From a virus: a DNA stretch of 26,088 nt. Under the pieces are notes generated by a model. It had not been told where the DNA came from, searched no databases, and saw only the letters and a program-made list of their open reading frames with translations. Where the stretch lies: IMG/VR virus record IMGVR_UViG_3300032360_000043, positions 1-26,088 of that record. The stretch is one strand, 5' to 3'. Within the stretch, counting starts at the first letter, position 1; each line of letters begins with the position of its first letter. Below are positions 9,980 to 15,168 of this stretch, one piece after another. The position numbers and the translations under genes were made by a program.

Positions 9980-10330
9980 ATGAGTACACATAGCTCACAA
10001 AAACGCAAGAACATCATTGTACCGCAGTCAGCATTCGGCGTTTGTTTATGGAAAATGCCAGATGGTGGCTTTATCGCGGATGGGGATGGAAACTATATGT
10101 GCGCTGAAGGCATGGTGGGTGACCGCAGGGTTGAAGCGCAGATGGCGGAGGCTGCCAGATACTGGGCTGGAGATGACAATGGCGGGAAGCCACATTGGCT
10201 TGATGGTGCTAGAAAGGTGTCTGATTCTGAACGGGAAGAGCAGGAGGGCCGGTTGGGTGCGGGACTTTTGCCTGATCCGGTCGAGGATGCTATTATCGAA
10301 GTGGCGCCGTATAAGGGGGGTGCTCGATGA
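9980..10330 (+). CDS. conserved phage protein, 116 aa, head of the structural block
   Basis: A 116-aa hydrophilic protein. The N-terminal part holds VCLWKMPDGGFIADGDGNYMCAEGMVGDRRVEAQM, and the middle has AARYWAGDDNGGKPHWLDGARKVSDSEREEQ followed by LLPDPVED. This arrangement (WxMPDGxFLADxxGxxLxAxGMxGDxxxEAxMxEAAxYW, GARKVTDSExxDQ, PDPVEE) is one I recall from marine and freshwater phage genomes just upstream of packaging or portal genes, always without known function. The start at ATG 9980 lacks a ribosome-binding site and lies just behind a promoter. The stop overlaps the next ATG by 4 bases (ATGA). Confidence 0.7.
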   Translation: MSTHSSQKRKNIIVPQSAFGVCLWKMPDGGFIADGDGNYMCAEGMVGDRRVEAQMAEAARYWAGDDNGGKPHWLDGARKVSDSEREEQEGRLGAGLLPDPVEDAIIEVAPYKGGAR

Positions 10331-12123: not shown

Positions 12124-12381
12124 ATGTACGGAAATAGTAGTATTATGTATTCAAACCTCAGTGTAGATAGCACTGATTCAACAATCACTTTTACGCATCA
12201 CACTGATGGTATTTATTTTCATAATACTCATGCATCGACTGATGCCACAGTCAAGCTTAATAACCATGTGTCTGTGTTGATTCCTGCTGGCGGTACGGAG
12301 TATGTTTGCATTCCCGGTGATTACACTCAGTTTCAAGTGATCACTGCGTCTGTTACTCTGGCCGTTTTTGCTGTAGGCTAA
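12124..12381 (+). CDS. small beta-rich protein between portal and protease, 85 aa
   Basis: An 85-aa Thr/His/Val-rich protein (MYGNSSIMYSNLSVDSTDS..., HTDGIYFHNTHASTDATVKLNN, IPAGGTEYVCIPGDYTQFQVITAS). The alternating pattern suggests a small beta-sandwich. AGGAGG 5 bases before ATG 12124 is a strong ribosome-binding site, implying high expression. The position between portal and protease fits a head-decoration or capsid-fibre role, but that is inference; I do not recognise a family. Confidence 0.65.
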   Translation: MYGNSSIMYSNLSVDSTDSTITFTHHTDGIYFHNTHASTDATVKLNNHVSVLIPAGGTEYVCIPGDYTQFQVITASVTLAVFAVG

Positions 12382-12388
12382 GCAGTGT

Positions 12389-12417
12389 TTGTAACATAAA
12401 TAAAACTATGTTACAAT
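12389..12417 (+). promoter_or_regulatory. promoter TTGTAA-17-TACAAT with embedded perfect 10-bp inverted repeat
   Basis: TTGTAA (12389-12394) and TACAAT (12412-12417) are 17 bases apart. The same bases form a perfect inverted repeat, TTGTAACATA (12389-12398) and TATGTTACAA (12407-12416), with an 8-base AT-rich centre. Each arm covers one promoter element, so a dimeric protein bound here would block or reshape polymerase binding. Transcripts would start near 12424 and drive the protease-scaffold and capsid genes. A hairpin role at the end of the upstream transcript is less likely because no T-run follows. Confidence 0.6.
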
Positions 12418-12449
12418 GTTGCTCATAGCTTCACAAGGAGGCAATAATA

Positions 12450-13721
12450 ATGCATGGCGATAAATTACAACTAATATTCCCCATTTCCCTCGTTAAGAGT
12501 GAGGAGAGGGTTGTTGTTGGTGTTGCCACTGCTGATAATATAGATAAGTCTGGAGATGTTGTAAGTTTTGAGGCATCTGCGACTGCGTTTAAAAATTGGC
12601 AAGGCAATATCCGCGAGATGCATCAGCCTCTGGCTGTTGGCAAGGCTGTTGGTCATCGACCGGTTGAAATTAATCAGAATGGAAGCATCTATCGTGGTGT
12701 GGAAGTATCTGCTTATATTTCAAAGGGCGCTGAGGATACTTGGCAAAAGGTTTTGGATGGCACCCTCGGTGCTTTCTCTATCGGTGGCCGTATCTTGGAA
12801 CGTAAAGATGACGAGACTAGAAAGTTTCGTGGTCAACCGGTTAGTGTTGTTACCAAGTATGAACTTGGAGAGCTGAGCTTGGTAGATAATCCTGCCAATC
12901 CGGTTGCTAATATAACATTAATCAAATCCGATGACGAAGGTCTTACTTATGCTCTCGAAATTGATGAATCTGAGTGTCACAATATTGGTGACACTTTAGT
13001 TTGCATCACACATGATGATATTGAAAAAACTGAATGTAACTGTACTGTAACGAAAGACTTGCAAAATAGCAATAGTTCTGATATGGTTACTTACATGGAA
13101 AACACGGACGTTATCAATACGTCTGAAGATGCCCCGTCTGAAGACGGGGTATTCGAAGGTGTAGAGATGAACGAAAAGCTCTCACTTCTTCAGAGGTTTT
13201 TAACATGGCTGAACGATCCCGCTAATGCGGAGTCGATTGATTCTGTTGATTCTGATGAAGACGATGTAGAAAAAATTACTGCTGAGGTGGAAGAGATTGC
13301 GCTTGTAGCAGAAATCAATGAAGGAGATGATATTGATATGAATATCGATGAACTCACTGCGGCTCTAGGTACTGTCATTGATGAAAAGCTTGCTTCCCAT
13401 TCGGAGGCTTCGACCGGCAAGGTTGAGGCTCTTATCGAGGAGAAGTTGGCTTCTGCCATTAATGCAATGACTGAGAAGCAGGAAGAACTCACAGCTAAGG
13501 TTGATGAGTCCACAAAGTCAGTCACCGATAGCCTTGACGGGATCAACATGCGTGTTGAAACTGTTGAGAATGCCGGTGCAATTAAAAAGAGTGTTGACGA
13601 GACAGAAGAAGACGAGGCCAATGTAATCGCTAAGATTGCCGAAGAGGATGTCCCAGAATCATTTTGGGGTAACATTTTCCTCCCTCAGGACTTAATCAAG
13701 TCTCTTGGATACGAGTCATAA
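12450..13721 (+). CDS. prohead protease fused to scaffold-like C-terminus
   Basis: A 423-aa head maturation protease. Residues 1-160 match the HK97-type prohead serine protease (S78 family): VVVGVATADNIDKSGDVVS (22-40), the catalytic His58 in REMHQPLAVGKAVG, catalytic Ser110 in LGAFSIGGRI, and ELSLVDNPANP (141-151). Residues 165-290 are acidic and low in structure. Residues 296-370 form a long helical coiled-coil stretch rich in Glu, Lys and Ala, and the C-terminus ends SFWGNIFLPQDLIKSLGY. This layout suggests protease and scaffold in one chain, with the scaffold cut away after assembly. AAGGAGG lies 8 bases before ATG 12450. An internal AAGGAG (13321-13326) upstream of in-frame ATG 13338 could give a separate scaffold. 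The capsid gene follows with 13 bases between. Confidence 0.85.
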   Translation: MHGDKLQLIFPISLVKSEERVVVGVATADNIDKSGDVVSFEASATAFKNWQGNIREMHQPLAVGKAVGHRPVEINQNGSIYRGVEVSAYISKGAEDTWQKVLDGTLGAFSIGGRILERKDDETRKFRGQPVSVVTKYELGELSLVDNPANPVANITLIKSDDEGLTYALEIDESECHNIGDTLVCITHDDIEKTECNCTVTKDLQNSNSSDMVTYMENTDVINTSEDAPSEDGVFEGVEMNEKLSLLQRFLTWLNDPANAESIDSVDSDEDDVEKITAEVEEIALVAEINEGDDIDMNIDELTAALGTVIDEKLASHSEASTGKVEALIEEKLASAINAMTEKQEELTAKVDESTKSVTDSLDGINMRVETVENAGAIKKSVDETEEDEANVIAKIAEEDVPESFWGNIFLPQDLIKSLGYES

Positions 13722-13734
13722 GGAGGAAATTATA

Positions 13735-14754
13735 ATGGCTAACGAAGAACTACTTCAAAAAGCAAACGAGGTTACTACCTCGGTTGTTGGCAATGCCTCT
13801 GGCGGTATTTTAAAGCCCGCTCAGGCAAATCGTTTCCTCGACTTTGTTATCGATCAGTCTGTGCTAATGCAGCAGTCTAGAGTTGTTCGCATGCGCGGCG
13901 ATTCTATGGAGATTGATAAGCTGTCGGTTGGAAGTCGCTTGCTTGCAAAGGCAACTGAGGCTACTGACACTGGTGCTAACGCTGCTGTGACCTTTACGAA
14001 GGTTGCTTTGTCAACGGTTAAGCTCCGGTTGGATTGGGAGGTCAGCACTGAGTCCCTTGAGGACAACATTGCTGGTGACTCCTTGGAAGATCATATTGCT
14101 CAGGTCATGGCGCGTCAAACGTCGAATGACATGGACGATCTTCTGATTAATGGTGATACCACAAGCAGCAATGCGCTGCTTAAGGCTCAGGACGGCTTTG
14201 TTAAGCTCGGTACGGCCAGTGGTGTTACGCATGCTACTGAAACAAACATTAGCCGTGCGGTATATGACGCAACTTTGCGTAAGATGCCGAACAAGTACCT
14301 GCAGCGTCGCAACGAGTTGCGATTCTTTAGTGGTCCCGGCATTGTTCAGGACACTATTTACACATTGCAGAACCCAAATTCTGCAACTGAGGCTACTGCT
14401 GGTGCGCCTTCACCCGGTTCTACCATGGGTGACAGGCTCTACAGCAACCCGGGTGGTCCTAACGGAGGTCCCGGATCAACGGGGCTTGCTCCGTTTGGTA
14501 TCCCTCTGATTGAGGTTCCCCTCATGCCAGAGACAGTCGCGGGTAGCTATAGTGGTGCCAGTGGAAATCACGGTTATATCATTTTGACCTTCCCCAACAA
14601 TCATATTGTTGGTATTCAGCGCGAGATTACGGTTTACCGTGAATTCAAGCCGAAGAAGGACACAATTGAGTACACGCAGTACAACAGGGTTGCTCAGAAC
14701 ATCGAGAACGCTGAAGCATACGTGATCGTTAAGGACACTAAGCTCCGGACCTGA
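13735..14754 (+). CDS. major capsid protein
   Basis: A 339-aa major capsid protein that follows the protease-scaffold gene, the canonical order. ATG 13735 with AGGAGG 8 bases upstream fixes the start. Features of the HK97 fold include an N-terminal helical arm, the strand pair SRVVRMRGDSMEIDKLSVGSRLL, then TVKLRLDWEVSTESLEDNIAG leading to the long spine helix (DSLEDHIAQVMARQTSNDMDDLLINGD), a Gly/Pro-rich loop near residue 215-245 (SPGSTMGDRLYSNPGGPNGGPGSTG), and a C-terminal strand region with NHIVGIQREITVYREFKPKKDTIEYTQYNRV. The coding sequence uses C- and G-ending codons more than its neighbours, as expected for a highly expressed gene. A rho-independent terminator follows. Confidence 0.85.
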   Translation: MANEELLQKANEVTTSVVGNASGGILKPAQANRFLDFVIDQSVLMQQSRVVRMRGDSMEIDKLSVGSRLLAKATEATDTGANAAVTFTKVALSTVKLRLDWEVSTESLEDNIAGDSLEDHIAQVMARQTSNDMDDLLINGDTTSSNALLKAQDGFVKLGTASGVTHATETNISRAVYDATLRKMPNKYLQRRNELRFFSGPGIVQDTIYTLQNPNSATEATAGAPSPGSTMGDRLYSNPGGPNGGPGSTGLAPFGIPLIEVPLMPETVAGSYSGASGNHGYIILTFPNNHIVGIQREITVYREFKPKKDTIEYTQYNRVAQNIENAEAYVIVKDTKLRT

Positions 14755-14803: not shown

Positions 14804-14846
14804 ACACCCCCGGGTCACGACATGTGCTCGGGGGTGTGCTGTTTTT
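14804..14846 (+). terminator. rho-independent terminator after the major capsid gene
   Basis: ACACCCCCG (14804-14812) pairs perfectly with CGGGGGTGT (14829-14837) around a 16-base loop, followed after four bases by TTTTT (14842-14846). It would end the capsid transcript before the fibre genes. Confidence 0.75.
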
Positions 14847-14880: not shown

Positions 14881-15168
14881 ATGGCTGATGATAAGAATAC
14901 AGTTACAACTAAAGATTTAAAGAGTGCCGAGGCTGAAACCGCTCCTGCTGCTCCTGCCAAAAAGGCCGCCCCTAAAAAGGCTGCTCCGTCAGGTGAAGTA
15001 ATGCTGTTCATGCGTCACGGATATGGATATTCTATAAGTGGAGGAGTTAACTTCACTAGGGATCATCCGTATCAGCTTGTAGATGCGGCGACTGCAGAGT
15101 CGCTTTTGGCTTCAACTCAGTTCGAGAAGGCTACTCAAAAGCAAGTTAAGGAACATTACGGCGAGTAG
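14881..15168 (+). CDS. small structural-block protein with Ala/Lys/Pro linker, 95 aa
   Basis: A 95-aa protein. The first 38 residues are a flexible Ala/Pro/Lys linker (ETAPAAPAKKAAPKKAAP), and the remainder is a compact domain (GEVMLFMRHGYGYSISGGVNFTRDHPYQLVDAATAESLLASTQFEKAT). The RDHPYQLVD segment followed by a helix resembles small head-tail or capsid-associated proteins that follow capsid genes, but I cannot name a family. The start at ATG 14881 (MADDKNTVTT) fits a leaderless message; an upstream ATG would extend the protein back through the terminator hairpin and is implausible. Confidence 0.65.
   Translation: MADDKNTVTTKDLKSAEAETAPAAPAKKAAPKKAAPSGEVMLFMRHGYGYSISGGVNFTRDHPYQLVDAATAESLLASTQFEKATQKQVKEHYGE

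Follow-up and report, generated by a model that had tools for sequence, protein, structure and literature searches.

The window analyzed herein, a virus record of IMG/VR with a total length of 26,088 bases, carries head genes in which a 68-nt gap separates a small upstream gene from the head maturation protease gene, followed by the major capsid protein gene (Table 1). At the DNA level, the capsid gene resembled genes annotated as capsid in Streptomyces phages; a capsid scan of genome contigs found no relative and thus gave no host clue. Within the gap, TTGTAACATA (12389-12398) was the exact reverse complement of TATGTTACAA (12407-12416), located 8 nt apart, as the preliminary description had claimed from the letters, and its account of the overlap with the promoter hexamers proved equally accurate, as TTGTAA opens the left arm and the right arm contains TACAA of TACAAT. 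A promoter scan of the window listed the same two hexamers, with 17-nt spacing and a TG ahead of the -10. In addition, a small hairpin (GCTTC-ACAAG-GAGGC, 12428-12442) was predicted to overlap the Shine-Dalgarno sequence of the protease gene; it is not universal, as L011 and L030 lack the TTC.

Table 1. Features in and around the gap preceding the protease gene (positions in the window).
Feature	Position	Strand	Remarks
Upstream 85-aa gene	12124..12381	+	Ends 7 nt before the -35; without family match
Perfect 10-bp inverted repeat	12389..12416	.	Arms 12389-12398 and 12407-12416; 8-nt loop
-35 element TTGTAA	12389..12394	+	TTG invariant in 18 aligned sequences
Extended -10 element TATGTTACAAT	12407..12417	+	TRTGn + TACAAT; TG.TA...T invariant in 18 sequences
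-10 hexamer TACAAT	12412-12417	+	17 nt from the -35; TG one base before
Predicted transcription start (A)	12425	+	8 nt past the -10; deduced from promoter geometry
Shine-Dalgarno AAGGAGG of protease gene	12435..12441	+	Invariant in alignment
Head maturation protease gene	12450..13721	+	phrog_9427, E 1.4e-58
Major capsid protein gene	13738..14754	+	phrog_1623, E 2e-82

The right arm together with the next T (TATGTTACAAT) has the form of a normal TRTGn extended -10 element, in which TGTTACAAT places TGn directly before a TAnnnT hexamer, and the TTG-type -35 lies 17 nt away in the window and its close relatives and 17 or 18 nt away in distant ones, within the 16-18 nt typical of such promoters. 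TRTG is the consensus in the extended -10 promoters of Gram-positive bacteria (PMC2613000), with which the window shares the TTG-type -35, the 17-bp spacer, and TATG-T-TACAAT; it differs from them in the perfect dyad over both hexamers, which occurs in the window's lineage only. Literature searches for related promoters yielded general reviews only. A housekeeping-type (σ70/σA-like) RNA polymerase would read the extended -10 promoter in the gap, and transcription of the protease and capsid genes would begin a few bases downstream of it.

The preliminary description had proposed checking whether the repeat is conserved upstream of the protease genes of related phages. For this comparison, protease relatives were drawn from viral contigs, the gaps before their protease genes were compared, and 18 sequences were aligned. 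The promoter stayed and the symmetry went. The columns invariant in all 18 sequences included the TTG of the -35, the TG.TA...T of the extended -10, and the Shine-Dalgarno sequence. All 13 distinct sequences of the close clade (protease 79-92% identical) retained the -35, the 17-bp spacer, and the extended -10, and the inner arm pairs were lost in 11 of them, leaving 6-7 of 10 positions matched; full 10/10 symmetry was limited to the window and one sister contig, L013. In a second clade (approximately 58% identical), TTG-N3-17-TAnnnT was kept with symmetries of 2, 3, and 5/10, and contigs at about 36-63% identity likewise kept the promoter, with a spacer of 17 or 18 bp and symmetries of 1-5/10. 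Over distinct, mostly more distant loci, TTG-N3-17/18-TAnnnT was present in the gap in 22 of 22, with a symmetry of 1-5/10 at the conserved site. A second scan, anchored on the Shine-Dalgarno sequence and start codon and independent of the promoter letters, recovered only one extra locus (L169), which carries the L012 sequence.

This retention went far beyond expectation, with TTG-N3-17-TAnnnT lying within 70 nt of the start codon in 16 of 18 representative relatives (4% expected from shuffles), and the same arrangement plus TG in 9 of 18 (0.3% expected), although these representative gaps come from kin sequences and are not independent trials. Despite this kinship, those that share only 36-60% protein identity separated long enough ago for ample divergence. 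The head gene cluster of Streptomyces phage Faust (Stanwilliamsviridae), which shares with the window the gene order portal, small gene, protease, and capsid and shows only distant DNA similarity to it (about 70% in short stretches), also has TTGCCT-17-TAATAT in the gap before the protease gene (read by eye), but lacks the window's dyad. A different dyad, ATATTGTT...AACAATAT, was seen between the hexamers in the protease gaps of a more distant clade (L042, L051, L059, and L071), and is broken in L039.

The substitutions in the relatives indicated which of the two properties has been maintained. The change of TACAAT to the consensus TATAAT in L002, L004, L005, L017, and L019, and of TTGTAA to TTGTTA in L012 and L018, broke the symmetry and left the promoter sense intact. 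When the 10-bp structure was projected onto the alignment, no pair had both of its positions altered, and covariation scored 0.078, not above the 0.080 of shuffles. The symmetry itself is mostly built in, with TTGTAA and TTACAA being mutual reverse complements and TATG serving as the TRTG of the extended -10. Roughly half of it comes with the hexamers, TTGTA being the reverse complement of TACAA, and, once the extended -10 is taken to account for the entire right arm, the left arm holds just four unexplained letters (CATA); these would have arisen in one small lineage and are probably idle as a dyad. Promoter symmetry can thus stem largely from the hexamers themselves, and it is the relatives that settle the question.

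Considered together, the locus is most probably an ordinary extended -10 promoter for the protease and capsid genes whose halves mirror each other incidentally. Comparison of the sequences shows that the promoter elements are conserved and that the symmetry is lost, whereas actual transcription, the polymerase used, and the absence of a regulator are inferred. Of the protease-capsid promoter with a dedicated operator envisaged in the preliminary description, the promoter part holds, its -35, spacer, and -10 being conserved down to approximately 36% protease identity, and the part concerning a symmetrical site for a dedicated late-gene regulator finds no support, the promoter being asymmetric in all relatives except one sister contig. 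The perfect dyad is most likely, judging from the alignment, a coincidence confined to one lineage or, at the most, an operator that this lineage acquired recently. The gain is a comparatively well supported late promoter in an uncultivated phage group.

The rarity of the dyad deserves consideration in this regard. Dinucleotide shuffling of the window yielded an average of 0.35 perfect 10-bp repeats having a 3-20 nt loop, and the one at 12389-12416 was the only such repeat in the actual window. A repeat landing exactly on the promoter is less likely than one falling anywhere in the window: with the hexamers fixed, the probability of 10/10 symmetry was approximately 0.0014-0.0018 per promoter, and, with the right arm taken as extended -10, CATA would occur by chance at local composition in approximately 0.6% of cases (hand calculation). 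These figures are small, yet not decisive for one site chosen from the whole window. A search of 2.9 million viral contigs for the exact dyad with its 8-nt gap returned one other contig, the sister (L013/L155), and a degenerate search with loops of 4-14 nt added four AT-rich viral contigs (L156-L159) in which the arms recur around a shorter or longer loop and for which no link to the window was seen. Against the ordinary promoter, the arms of L013 are identical to those of the window, even though its outer flank differs. The probability that six free arm positions escape change by chance is, however, approximately 0.12 (hand estimate based on about 7 substitutions among 23 free positions of flank and spacer), and this identity counts only as weak evidence.

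Operators overlapping the -35 and -10 occur at phage and bacterial promoters, e.g., lambda OR/PR. In the lineage of the window and L013, the dyad might be occupied by a dimeric protein, either a repressor or an activator encoded by the phage or its host, that times head-gene expression, as would befit a perfect 10-bp dyad placed exactly on both hexamers, repeated letter for letter in the sister contig, and expected by chance at only about 0.1-0.6% per promoter. We nevertheless regard this as unlikely. A regulator usually has several sites, but no further copy of the dyad was found in the 26-kb window even at 3 mismatches; at the orthologous promoters, the symmetry was absent from every relative other than L013; and a scan of ten small proteins from the window gave no match to any DNA-binding-regulator family, a weak argument as the contig is a fragment. 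While the window resembles the lambda OR/PR-type operators in having a dyad on a promoter, it differs from them in carrying a single copy over its 26 kb, in having no known regulator, and in its lack of conservation in relatives. Under such a reading, four letters would have drifted in the window and L013 so as to make a conserved late promoter a perfect dyad, which a dimeric phage or host protein would now use for timing protease-capsid expression; a newly born operator of this kind, recognizable against its asymmetric relatives, is likewise unlikely.

An intercistronic RNA hairpin, in which mRNA reading through from the portal gene folds at the repeat and thereby affects decay or processing, is more doubtful than the operator. 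A stem was indeed predicted in the window (z about -4.5) and L013 (z about -4.0), and a 6-8 bp core, extendable outward, was kept in relatives. When the promoter letters were fixed and the rest permuted, none of 500 permutations folded as well as the window and 0.8% as well as L013, compared with 4-20% for the other relatives, several of which were borderline at 4-6%; the better folding of the window and L013 also counts, though weakly, against the ordinary promoter. The core, however, is forced by TTGTAA/TTACAAT, and the second clade folds differently. The outward-extending stem was judged weak, as the added pairs differ in place between sequences and show no compensatory changes. The repeat lacks both a G+C-rich stem followed by a T-run and a covarying stem; having no U-tract, it is no intrinsic terminator, it had no Rfam match, and it is absent from the window's terminator list. 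Moreover, the predicted start is downstream of the stem, which would therefore be missing from transcripts of this promoter and exist only in read-through RNA. The reading that there is no promoter at all and that the inverted repeat arose by chance within AT-rich sequence of the gap, in line with at least one equally good repeat in 27% of shuffled windows and with the commonness of promoter-like matches (28 found, 18.5 expected), is scarcely credible given that the -35, spacer, and -10 positions are conserved across relatives far beyond shuffles.

The ordinary promoter also fits into a wider set. TGnTAnnnT was found upstream of the RNR gene and of the genes at 9980, 14881, and 15598 in the phage and its relatives, making extended -10 promoters the norm for this region; the symmetry at the other promoters of the phage was 2-5/10, and none had the dyad. 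At the neighbouring late genes 9980, 14881, and 15598, nearly every relative listed has an extended -10 whose end is 6-9 nt from the ATG, mostly with no Shine-Dalgarno match. With the approximately 6-9 nt that separate the -10 of such promoters from the start of transcription, the first transcribed base would lie at or next to the ATG, so that leaderless late mRNAs are predicted from all three genes on the basis of promoter position. The protease gene, by contrast, has a leader with AAGGAGG. Under the leaderless reading, the gene mechanically listed from 14824 should begin at 14881. As a lead, this wider set, several members of which are placed directly at start codons, is of more use than the palindrome. 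After the capsid gene, a strong G+C-rich inverted repeat, ACACCCCCGGG...CTCGGGGGTGT (14804-14837), with TTTTT shortly downstream, is conserved in relatives and is immediately followed by the promoter of the next gene, an arrangement that resembles a terminator-promoter unit. The listed start of the RNR ORF (7634) overlaps the extended -10-like ATGCTAAGAT, and the alignment of relatives suggests a downstream GTG after AGGAGG as the true start.
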